In this document: one piece after another, positions 290 to 6,733 of the stretch
Layout: each line of letters opens with the position of its first letter
Numbering within the stretch: the first letter of the stretch is position 1
Assembly (NCBI GenBank): GCA_017534365.1
Contig: JAFWCS010000139.1
Location: 1 to 6,733, forward strand
Length of the DNA: 6,733 bases
From: Clostridia bacterium
Lineage (GTDB): Bacteria > Bacillota > Clostridia > Oscillospirales > Acutalibacteraceae
Reading direction: 5' to 3'
Program-made: the position numbers and the translations under genes
Notes under the pieces: generated by a model
Database searches by the model: none
What the model was told of the DNA's origin: nothing
The model's input: the letters and a program-made list of their open reading frames with translations, nothing else

Positions 290-319
290 ATTATATACTA
301 TTTGCGGGCGGGTTGTCAA
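290..319 (-). promoter_or_regulatory. Consensus sigma-A promoter for yebC
   Basis: Read on the minus strand, there is a perfect -35 box TTGACA (319-314), an 18-bp spacer and a perfect -10 box TATAAT (295-290). Transcription would start near position 283, giving a leader of roughly 28 nt before the yebC ATG at 255. The -35 box contains the TGA stop codon (318-316) of the lipoprotein gene, so the promoter begins exactly where that gene ends. No activator or repressor site is recognised, so expression is probably strong and constitutive. No intrinsic terminator is visible between the lipoprotein gene and yebC, so read-through from the upstream operon may add to this promoter. Confidence 0.85.
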
Positions 320-813
320 GTGGGATCGGCCGTTGCCGTGCCCGCAGCCGTCGCCGTGCCCGCAGCCGTCGCCGTGCCCGCAGCCGTCGCCGTGCCTGCG
401 GCCGTCGCCGTGCCCGCGGCCGTTTCCACCGGCATGGGATCTTCGCCGATGTTGAACGCCGCGTTGTCGGGAATGGACAGGGTGACCTTGCCTTCGCTGT
501 CGGTGAAGGAAACCAGACGCAGCACCTCCTGACTTTCCACGTTGAGCAGGATCGTGTAACGGCCGTTGGTCGAGGTCAGTGTGAGCTGCGCGGTTTCTTC
601 ATTATAAACGTAGGTGCCGCGCAGACGCAGGCCGTCGTTGGAATCCGAGAAGGAAAAGTTGCCGTCCTCTTTGAAAAGCAGCGTCGGCTCTTCAAACCGG
701 TTGGCAGGATCGTTGTAAGTATAGGCGGCTTTGAATACCACCGGCTTCGGGCTGCAGGCCGCGCAGGCGAAGAGCATCAGCAGGCATAAGAGGATTGCAA
801 GCAGTTTTTTCAT
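316..813 (-). CDS. Small secreted lipoprotein with C-terminal TAAGTA hexapeptide repeats
   Basis: This is a 165-residue protein. Residues 1-20 form a lipoprotein signal peptide: a KK n-region, a Leu-rich core, and two candidate lipidated cysteines in LFACAAC (Cys17 and Cys20; the latter is followed by SPKP). Predicted location is the outer face of the membrane. Residues 22-115 are a small, probably beta-rich domain with F/Y-G-T-Y and T-L-T-type strand alternation (for example LLFKEDGNFSF and LRGTYVYNEE), like the small lipocalin-like lipoproteins common in gut Firmicutes; no specific family is recognised. Residues 131-160 are five TAAGTA hexapeptides, a low-complexity Ala/Thr/Gly tail, ending TADPT. 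The start at 811-813 is preferred because AAGGGAG (828-822) lies eight bases upstream. A further in-frame ATG at 829-831 overlaps the yitT stop as ATGA but lacks a Shine-Dalgarno. The gene is 14 bp downstream of yitT and likely cotranscribed. Function unknown. Confidence 0.85.
   Translation of the reverse strand: MKKLLAILLCLLMLFACAACSPKPVVFKAAYTYNDPANRFEEPTLLFKEDGNFSFSDSNDGLRLRGTYVYNEETAQLTLTSTNGRYTILLNVESQEVLRLVSFTDSEGKVTLSIPDNAAFNIGEDPMPVETAAGTATAAGTATAAGTATAAGTATAAGTATADPT
329..424 (-). repeat. 18-bp tandem repeat, five copies, inside the lipoprotein gene
   Basis: The plus-strand unit is GCCGTGCCCGCAGCCGTC. Copies at 335-352, 353-370 and 371-388 are identical; 389-406 differs at two positions and 407-424 at two. 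A partial unit (329-334) precedes them. The perfect period-18 tract spans 335-396. The unit length is a multiple of three, so gain or loss of copies changes the protein by a TAAGTA hexapeptide without shifting the frame. The identity of the three copies nearest the 3' end of the gene suggests recent slipped-strand duplication. Confidence 0.95.
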
Positions 814-3590: not shown

Positions 3591-4901
3591 ATGGCAGTCA
3601 AGATCACGGGGATCGACCCGGGCAGCATCGCGCAAAAAAAGCGGATCGCGCCGGGCGACACGCTCCTGACCGTCAACGGCCGGGAGATCCGGGACGTGCT
3701 CGATTACCGCTTCTATCTGAATGACGGCAAGCTGCGTCTGGAGCTCCTGACCGCCGGGGGCAGACGCCGCCGCGTCACGATCCGCAAGGAGGAGACCGCG
3801 GACATCGGCCTGCAGTTTGCGACCTATCTGATGGATCAGCAGCGCAGCTGCAGAAACAACTGCGTCTTCTGCTTCATCGATCAGCTGCCGGCGGGGTTGC
3901 GGGAGAGCCTGTATTTCAAGGATGACGACGCGCGCCTGTCCTTCCTGTTCGGCAATTACATCACGCTGACCAATCTCACGGATGCCGAGGCGGACCGCAT
4001 CATCGAGATGCACATCAGCCCGGTGAACGTGTCGGTGCATACGATGGACCCGGCGCTGCGCGTGAAAATGATGAAGAACCGCTTTGCCGGCGAAGCCCTG
4101 CGCTTCCTTCACCGGTTCGCCGACGCCGGGATCGCGATGAACACGCAGCTCGTGCTCTGCCCCGGGATCAACGACGGACCGGCGCTCGCGCAGAGCCTGG
4201 ACGCCCAGTTCGCGCTCTATCCGGCGGTGCAGAGCGTGGCCGCCGTGCCCGTGGGGCTGACGGACCACCGCGACGGGCTGCCGGCGCTGGAACCGTTCAC
4301 GCCGGAAACGGCGGCGGCGGTGATCGATCTGATCGACGAAAAAAACGCCGCGTTCCGCGCGCAGCACGGCGAAACGATCGCCTACGCCGCAGATGAGTTT
4401 TATCTCAAGGCGGGGCGGCCGATGCCGGGGATGGACTATTACAACGATTTTCCGCAGCTGGAAAACGGCGTGGGCATGTGGACGCTGATGCGCACGGAAT
4501 TTGACGAAGCGCTCGCGGCCTGCGGCGCGCACGTGCCGGAACGCGCGGTGACCTGCGTGACCGGCGCGGCGGCGTATCCGCTGATTTCGGCGCTGGCGGA
4601 TGCGGCGATGGAGAAGTTTCCGCAGCTGACCGTGCGGACCGTGCGGGCAGAGAACCGTCCGTTCGGCAGCAAAATCACAGTCTCCGGGCTGCTGTGCGGC
4701 GCGGATATCGCCGCGGCGCTGGAAGGGTTGCCGCTCGGCGAGGGCGTGATCATCCCGCCGAACTGTTTAAAGAGCGATGAAGAGATCTTTCTGGACGATA
4801 TGACGGTGCCCGAGCTGGAAGCGCGGCTCGGCGTCCCGGTGATCAAACAGAAAAACGGCAGCGGCGAAGCGCTGCTGCAAGCAATGATCGGAGGTGCCTG
4901 A
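3591..4901 (+). CDS. DUF512 protein: PDZ domain plus radical-SAM-like domain
   Basis: The 436-residue protein has an N-terminal PDZ-like domain (about 3-65) with IAPGDTLLTVNGREIRDVLDYRF. It is followed by a radical-SAM-type region with the cluster motif C87-x3-C91-x2-C94 in CRNNCVFCFIDQLP, then the family signature LYFKDDDARLSFLFGNYITLTN (about 107-128). The C-terminal half (about 221-430) is DUF512, with YAADEFYLKAG and GAAAYPLISAL. The three Cys would bind a [4Fe-4S] cluster and S-adenosylmethionine; the substrate is unknown. The ATG at 3591 has AGGTGA (3581-3586) four bases upstream. The TGA stop overlaps the der ATG by one base (TGATG), so the two are translationally coupled. Adjacency to der is a recurring arrangement in Clostridia. 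The protein is full length with no damage seen; the function is not known, though a link to translation or ribosome assembly is a reasonable inference. Confidence 0.93.
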   Translation: MAVKITGIDPGSIAQKKRIAPGDTLLTVNGREIRDVLDYRFYLNDGKLRLELLTAGGRRRRVTIRKEETADIGLQFATYLMDQQRSCRNNCVFCFIDQLPAGLRESLYFKDDDARLSFLFGNYITLTNLTDAEADRIIEMHISPVNVSVHTMDPALRVKMMKNRFAGEALRFLHRFADAGIAMNTQLVLCPGINDGPALAQSLDAQFALYPAVQSVAAVPVGLTDHRDGLPALEPFTPETAAAVIDLIDEKNAAFRAQHGETIAYAADEFYLKAGRPMPGMDYYNDFPQLENGVGMWTLMRTEFDEALAACGAHVPERAVTCVTGAAAYPLISALADAAMEKFPQLTVRTVRAENRPFGSKITVSGLLCGADIAAALEGLPLGEGVIIPPNCLKSDEEIFLDDMTVPELEARLGVPVIKQKNGSGEALLQAMIGGA

Positions 4902-6223
4902 TGGCAGGGAATGTTGTGGCGATCGTCGGCCGCCCCAATGTGGGAAAATCGACGTTATTCAATAAACTGGTCGGCGCGAGGCTGGCGATCGTGGACGATA
5001 CGCCAGGCGTGACGCGCGACCGGATCTACGGGGACTGCGAATGGCTCGGCCGGCATTTCCTGCTGATCGATACGGGCGGCATCGAGCCGCGCGCGGACGA
5101 CGTGATCCTCAAGCAGATGCGCCGGCAGGCGCAGCTGGCCGTGGACAGTGCGGACGTGATCATTCTGGTTACGGATCTGCGCAGCGGCGTCGTTTCGAGC
5201 GACAGCGAGGTTGCGGCGATGCTGCAAAAGAGCGGCAAGCCGGTCATCCTCTGCGTCAACAAATGTGATACCGTCGGCGAGCTGCCGCCGGATTTCTATG
5301 AATTCTATAATCTCGGGCTGGGGGATCCGATCCCCGTTTCCTCCGTCCACGGCCACGGCACGGGCGACCTGCTCGATCAGGTGCTGGCCTATCTGCCGCA
5401 GGCGCCGCAGGAGGAGGAAGAGGAGGACGGCATCCGCGTGGCGGTGATCGGCAAGCCGAACGTCGGCAAATCCTCGCTGGTCAATGCCGTGCTCGGCGAG
5501 GACCGCATGATCGTCTCCGACATCGCCGGCACGACGCGGGACGCCACGGATTCGCTTGTCGAGAACGAGCACGGCAAATTCATCTTTATCGATACCGCCG
5601 GTCTGCGCCGCAAGAGCCGCGTTTATGACCAGATCGAAAAGTATTCCGTCATCCGCGCCCGCATGGCCGTCGAACGCGCGCAGGTCTGCGTGATCATGAT
5701 CGACGCCGTCGAGGGCTTCACCGAGCAGGATTCCAAGGTGGCCGGCATCGCGCATGAGATGGGCAAGGGCTGCATCATCGCGGTCAACAAATGGGACGCC
5801 GTCGAAAAGGACGGCAGGACCATGGACGGCTACCGCAAAAAGCTGATGCAGGATTTTGCGTTCATGTCCTACGCGCCGATCATCTTTATTTCCACAAAGG
5901 AAAAAATCAGAATCGACCGCCTGTTTGAATTGATCAAATTCGTCGACACGCAAAACGCCATGCGCATTCCGACCGGCCGGCTCAACGACGTGCTCGCCGA
6001 CGCTACAGCGCGGGTGCAGCCCCCGTCGGATAAGGGCAAACGGCTGAAGATCTTCTATATGACGCAGGCGTCCACCCGTCCGCCGACCTTCGTCTGCTTC
6101 GTCAACAATGCCGAGCTGTTCCACTACAGCTATCAGCGGTATCTGGACAATCAGATCCGCGGCATTTTCGGTCTGGAGGGAACGCCCACACGGTTTGTGA
6201 TCCGGGAAAGAGAGAAAAAATGA
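4901..6223 (+). CDS. der: Der (EngA) double GTPase, 50S ribosome assembly
   Basis: The 440-residue protein carries two tandem G domains and a KH-like C-terminal domain. Domain 1 has GRPNVGKS (10-17), DTPGVTRDR (33-41), DTGG (57-60) and NKCD (120-123). An acidic linker EEEEED (171-176) follows. Domain 2 has GKPNVGKSS (184-192), IAGTTRDATDS (208-218), DTAG (231-234) and NKWD (296-299). The KH-like domain (about 352-440) includes KIFYMTQAS, RPPTFVCFVN and the terminal GIFGLEGTPTRF stretch. Der binds the 50S subunit and is essential for its assembly in studied bacteria. GGAGGTG (4890-4896) lies four bases before the ATG and inside the end of the DUF512 gene. The stop codon overlaps the ruvC start in ATGA (6220-6223). 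All nucleotide-binding motifs are intact. Confidence 0.98.
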   Translation: MAGNVVAIVGRPNVGKSTLFNKLVGARLAIVDDTPGVTRDRIYGDCEWLGRHFLLIDTGGIEPRADDVILKQMRRQAQLAVDSADVIILVTDLRSGVVSSDSEVAAMLQKSGKPVILCVNKCDTVGELPPDFYEFYNLGLGDPIPVSSVHGHGTGDLLDQVLAYLPQAPQEEEEEDGIRVAVIGKPNVGKSSLVNAVLGEDRMIVSDIAGTTRDATDSLVENEHGKFIFIDTAGLRRKSRVYDQIEKYSVIRARMAVERAQVCVIMIDAVEGFTEQDSKVAGIAHEMGKGCIIAVNKWDAVEKDGRTMDGYRKKLMQDFAFMSYAPIIFISTKEKIRIDRLFELIKFVDTQNAMRIPTGRLNDVLADATARVQPPSDKGKRLKIFYMTQASTRPPTFVCFVNNAELFHYSYQRYLDNQIRGIFGLEGTPTRFVIREREKK

Positions 6224-6711
6224 TCGTTTTGGGCATCGACCCCGGCTATGCCATCGTCGGCTGCGGCGTGGTGGAGTAACAGAATAATCACTTCCGGATG
6301 CTGCATTACGGCGCGGTGACGACCGAAGCGCACACCCCCTTCAACGAACGGCTGGAAACGATCTACAACGGGGTGCTTGCGCTCATGCAGACCTATCACC
6401 CGCAGGCGATGGCGATCGAAAAGCTGTTTTTCAACACGAATCAGAAAACGGCGATCGACGTGGCGCAGGCGCGCGGCGTGCTTGTGCTCGCGGCGCAGCA
6501 GAACCGGATCCCGATCTTTGAATACACCCCGCTGCAGGTCAAGCAGAGCGTGGTCGGCTACGGCCGCGCGGAGAAAAAGCAGGTGCAGGAGATGACGCGC
6601 CTGCTGCTCAATCTGGAAAAGATCCCGAAGCCGGACGACGCGGCGGATGCGCTGGCCATGGCGATCTGCCATTGCCACAGCGCCGGCTCGCTGATCGGCA
6701 GTCTGGGATAA
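6220..6711 (+). pseudogene. ruvC: RuvC Holliday-junction resolvase interrupted by an in-frame TAA at codon 20
   Basis: Read from the ATG that overlaps the der stop, the frame gives MIVLGIDPGYAIVGCGVVE, then TAA (6277-6279), then QNNHFRMLHYGAVTTEAH and a full RuvC to 163 codons. Later landmarks are AIEKLFFNTNQKTAIDVAQARG (about 65-86), YTPLQVKQSVVGYGRAEKKQVQ (about 102-123) and KPDDAADALA (137-146). RuvC is a dimeric endonuclease that cuts Holliday junctions with RuvAB. Its four acids are visible as Asp7, Glu67, Asp140 and Asp143, but Asp7 lies before the stop. Family members usually have Tyr at the TAA position, so one base change from TAC or TAT explains it. Restart at the next ATG (6298-6300, no clear Shine-Dalgarno) would give 137 residues lacking Asp7 and hence probably no nuclease. 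The rest shows no frameshift or decay, so the lesion is recent, a sequencing error, or read through. The gene is certain; its status is not. Confidence 0.9.
6277..6279 (+). other. In-frame TAA stop within ruvC
   Basis: The local reading is GTG GTG GAG TAA CAG AAT AAT CAC. Frame is maintained on both sides with family-like sequence, so this is a substitution rather than an indel. The base after the stop is C, a context known to favour weak termination in bacteria, but no recognised recoding element or hairpin is evident downstream. Confidence 0.95.
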
Positions 6712-6723: not shown

Positions 6724-6733
6724 ATGTTTTACA
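6724..6733 (+). CDS. ruvA: Start of next gene, probably RuvA (first three codons only)
   Basis: Only MFY is inside the window. RuvA proteins of Firmicutes commonly begin MFYY or similar, and ruvA usually follows ruvC, so RuvA, the junction-binding subunit that loads the RuvB helicase, is the likely product. It is 12 bp after the ruvC stop, with a strong Shine-Dalgarno between. The identification rests on context plus three residues and is therefore tentative. Confidence 0.55.

Follow-up and report, generated by a model that had tools for sequence, protein, structure and literature searches.

In the Holliday-junction resolvase RuvC, the reaction depends on four catalytic acids, which we take from the Escherichia coli protein to be D7, E67, D140 and D143. 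These letters are kept in 118 (D7), 120 (E67), 120 (D140) and 120 (D143) of the best 120 relatives among the 8,000 database proteins scored, and the closest solved structure, with the intact database protein P0001 as the query, is 1hjr. The ruvC gene described here resembles this family (PF02075, 1hjr) in its full profile match and in the presence of all four acids, and is unlike it in having an in-frame TAA at codon 20, a stop that none of the other sequences examined shows.

The other described situation close to this locus is that of lone stops arising as artefacts of draft metagenome-assembled genomes. Truncated predicted proteins have been used to estimate assembly errors, in a case that concerns indels in long-read assemblies (PMC6785717). 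The draft studied here is likewise a single fragmentary assembly, in which conserved genes, some of them essential, are each broken by a single stop; it differs from that case in that the changes are substitutions.

The contig and its genes

The window, by which we mean the whole stretch of DNA analyzed, is one entire contig (C69) of 6,733 bases. It belongs to the draft genome, 71% complete, of a bacterium that is likely a gut member of the Clostridia; the draft totals 2.27 Mb and is split into 528 contigs. An intact gene for the GTPase Der (der, 4901..6223, forward strand; TIGR03594, 562 bits) overlaps with its TGA the ATG of ruvC (6220..6711, forward strand). The contig ends 22 bases past ruvC and cuts a further forward-strand gene after its initial codons (6724..6733); by its position, this is presumably ruvA. 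In the relative G015, ruvB is found ~0.7 kb past ruvC. No inner stop was seen in der or in the other genes of the contig besides ruvC, namely the start of yebC, a lipoprotein-like frame, yitT, a ribonuclease III-domain protein, obgE and a radical SAM/DUF512 protein. The latter (3591-4901) combines PDZ, radical SAM and DUF512 parts and matched TIGR03279 below the cut-off (371 vs 574.7 bits). The small lipoprotein-like frame (316-813, reverse strand) is without a Pfam match, has more changed than silent codons when compared with the relative G027 (39 vs 26), and contains in its 3' part an 18-base tandem repeat of 5.3 copies (329-423).

A lone TAA separates Asp7 from the remainder of RuvC

When the ruvC frame was read through its one interruption, the PF02075 profile was matched over its whole length (positions 1-148 of 148, E 4.8e-53, 179.6 bits vs a cut-off of 22.2), with exactly one TAA inside the match and the register kept on both sides. 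Translation of 6220-6711 gives 19 codons that include Asp7 (6220..6276), then, in the given consensus, the TAA at codon 20 (6277-6279), which is followed by a C, then 143 codons and a terminal TAA at 6709-6711. The first in-frame ATG past the stop opens a forward-strand frame of 137 residues (6298..6711) that matches the RuvC profiles PF02075 and NF000711 from position 26-27 onward. This frame contains E67, D140 and D143 and lacks D7, so that its product, if made, is expected from the known RuvC active site to be inactive.

These results agree with the description in an earlier note on this DNA, which had reported a lone TAA at codon 20 with RuvC-like sequence on both sides and a normal end stop, Asp7 upstream of the TAA, and a C after it. 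Its further statements, that a restart at 6298 would give an inactive fragment and that the remainder of the gene looks under selection, also hold, the former as an expectation from the loss of Asp7 and the latter by the conservation of the gene.

Codon 20 in relatives and the age of the change

The ruvC gene was found by DNA in 41 of the 45 genomes of the genus, and by profile likewise in 41 of the 45, with an inner stop in the window's genome only (0/40 others). At the family level, 357 of 398 genomes had ruvC and, among the matches listed, the stop was again confined to the window's genome. Codon 20 encodes Tyr in the nearest relative (94% DNA identity) and Phe in the next (90%). We also reached 80 loci in named genomes through der, fetching up to 3 kb of flanking sequence on either side; these come partly from the same genomes as the genus set. 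An inner stop was present in none of the 55 loci that contained ruvC, residue 20 being Tyr in 50, His in 2, Gln in 2 and Phe in 1. Among the best 120 of the 8,000 scored database proteins, position 20 was occupied by Tyr (104), His (9), Gln (4), Phe (1), Ala (1) or a gap (1), although this set is biased to intact genes because predicted proteins cannot contain stops. The comparison with sister genomes that the earlier note had proposed hence returned an amino acid in every relative where the position was readable (locus L025 was not read). One genome of the same genus, G016, listed as 97% complete, has no ruvC by DNA or by profile, and the SecA and Tex domains are present in it.

The protein P0001 is an intact RuvC of 163 residues with Tyr20; along the 137-residue stretch that begins at the restart ATG, it shows 99% identity to the window. 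When the window was compared with its four closest proteins (P0001-P0004), codon 20 was the sole residue private to it; at 14 further positions differing from at least one of the four, the window residue was common to another of them. As only position 20 is private in this comparison, the stop is either younger than every other replacement in RuvC or not real. Between the ruvC genes of the window and of G027, most of the differing codons were silent (22, against 6 changed ones that include the stop).

Lone stops in secA and tex of the same draft

A codon-usage scan combined with a family search uncovered two more lone stops in the window's genome: a TAG inside secA (L103 4020-4022, contig C47, forward strand) and a TAA inside tex (L117 2888-2890, contig C61, reverse strand), the latter 141 bases from one end of its contig. 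The SecA domain was found in 41 of the 45 genomes of the genus and the Tex domain in 37, and in both cases a stop inside the match was seen only in the window's genome (0/40 and 0/36 others); G027 and G015 have sense codons at both places. The two pieces of secA, both open frames, fit one SecA profile at the adjoining positions 1-91 and 93-595, and the alignments of the secA stretch to G027 and to G015 contain one one-base gap in each. In another genome of the genus (G001, contig C17, ~23,680), secA was matched in two pieces that overlap by two bases in a frameshift-like manner, perhaps another artefact of a draft genome.

The secA gene is essential in bacteria where tested, and a real truncation is therefore not expected to be viable. 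As the stop lies ~96 codons in and would remove nearly all of SecA, it is at least this one of the three that is hard to accept as real. Null mutants of ruvC and tex are viable in known bacteria, so real mutations would be possible in those two genes.

The presence of similar lone stops in secA and tex, found in this draft only among the genus genomes searched, together with the fact that secA is not expected to be dispensable, makes it likely that the ruvC TAA is an erroneous consensus base in a fragmentary draft and not biology. The ruvC, secA and tex stops would then have a common origin in base errors of an assembly with thin coverage. The earlier note had left three options side by side: a fresh nonsense mutation, an assembly or base-call error, and readthrough that tunes RuvC levels. 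The secA and tex stops favor the error, and tuning by readthrough finds no support, as no relative examined has the stop and position 20 varies.

The error rate that this implies was estimated from five intact genes of the window, in which 392 of the 15,552 single-base changes (2.5%) create a stop. Three stops in 233.7 kb would on this basis suggest about 120 wrong bases, or ~5e-4 per base, with a Poisson range of ~1e-4 to 1.5e-3. A draft assembled from short reads at thin coverage could plausibly have such a rate.

Quality of the assembly as a whole

We fetched 76 contigs of the window's genome and dropped the 35 that were masked (more than half N), leaving 41 readable contigs with 233,732 bases. 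The fetched part of the genome G015, a better draft, served as a control (1.13 Mb; 2 of 61 stretches dropped as masked). A first comparison of longest frames with G015 (27 frames with at least 70% identity, of which 5 had inner stops) was discarded because antisense frames and masked contigs were mixed in. The comparison filtered by composition covered 46 frames and 12,650 residues, some of them overlapping, and 4 of the 46 had inner stops; the three outside ruvC were rejected because the other strand carries a longer frame there (of 735 residues in L050 and 297 in L072). No frameshift candidate and no convincing lone stop besides that of ruvC was left in the 46 frames compared with G015. The assembly is for this reason not grossly bad, which counts against an error in the consensus.

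A strict coding-potential scan, which missed the ruvC stop itself, found 9 candidates (3.85 per 100 kb) in the window's genome against 11 (0.97 per 100 kb) in G015, and 0 in the one 20-kb stretch of G027 that it covered. Under the looser codon-usage scan, the densities were 6.85 per 100 kb for the window's genome (16 candidates, 233.7 kb) and 5.92 per 100 kb for G015 (67 candidates, 1.13 Mb), the raw rates being similar in both drafts because nearly all candidates are, by eye, gene boundaries. Sorting by eye placed 3 of the 16 in the middle of a gene (ruvC, secA and tex), and these three were then tested; we read the 13 others as ordinary gene ends, after which another gene starts in that frame or little else follows. 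In G015, 62 of the 67 candidates have a start codon within 20 codons past the stop. Two of the 5 without one (L221 1340 and L233 13200), as well as L061 8114, could be lone stops in unnamed genes; the control could hold lone stops too, none of them in a nameable gene. Since the raw rate of the window's genome is hardly above that of G015, the case for an artefact rests on ruvC, secA and tex. At the invariant columns of Der, the window has 1 private residue, within the spread of 0 to 4 in 82 sequences; this test has low power, since far less than one such residue is expected at the error rate estimated above, and its outcome does not favor an error in the consensus.

Could the stop be real?

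The explanation that comes next after a consensus error, and that we consider less likely, is a real and very recent nonsense mutation in the ruvC of this strain. One substitution would be enough to produce it, the rest of ruvC is conserved with a stop younger than all other changes in the protein, and the compared parts show no frameshifts and no excess of private residues. However, the secA of this draft is interrupted by a comparable lone stop, which is difficult to account for as a null that the cell tolerates, and the near-identical P0001 is intact. A back-up resolvase was not found either: RecU was present in 0 of 5 genomes (the window's genome and four relatives), as was RusA, so that the idea of the earlier note that an organism with a fixed stop would rely on another resolvase found no support. 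RuvX and a strong RuvB match, present in G027 and G015, were also not found in the window's genome. With a completeness of 71%, all these absences from the window's genome are weak evidence. If the nonsense mutation were real, the strain would have no RuvC resolvase and perhaps less RuvA and RuvB by polarity, and it would be impaired in repair or headed for loss.

A programmed or tuned readthrough of the stop that sets the level of RuvC is very improbable. The frame stays in register past the TAA, a C follows the stop, and the downstream sequence is RuvC-family-like, as such a mechanism would have it. It would, however, be expected in at least some relatives, and none examined has the stop: it was absent from the ruvC of all 40 other ruvC-bearing genomes of the genus and of all 55 loci fetched through der, which are partly from the same genomes. 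Residue 20 varies among the relatives, release factor 1 is present and unbroken, and ruvC itself terminates with TAA.

We find it equally far-fetched that stop reassignment or nonsense suppression turns TAA and TAG into sense codons throughout the genome, even if the lone TAA in tex and the lone TAG in secA point in this direction. With a reassigned code, far more inner stops would be expected than the 3 judged to be mid-gene in 233.7 kb, the end stop of ruvC is at the same place as in the two nearest relatives, and TAA seems to be the end stop of several other genes as well. The product of prfA reads UAA and UAG, and an unbroken prfA is present. No suppressor tRNA was found in the 41 readable contigs, which are about a tenth of the genome and yielded a single tRNA (Val). 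The unbroken release factor 1 and the essentiality of secA where tested make recoding unlikely. Hardly more credible is a combination in which the ruvC, secA and tex stops are all real and the lineage tolerates scattered UAA and UAG codons in its housekeeping genes, the essential secA among them, by suppressing them efficiently alongside a functional release factor 1.

Meaning of the stop

As a feature, the ruvC stop is ordinary. Two more lone stops, one of them in secA, turn what seemed an interesting knock-out of RuvC into a likely sequence error, and this calls for caution: lone in-frame stops in conserved genes of fragmentary drafts should be checked against the remainder of the assembly before they are given a biological reading. 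With the TAA as an erroneous base of the consensus, ruvC would be ordinary and intact in the living organism.
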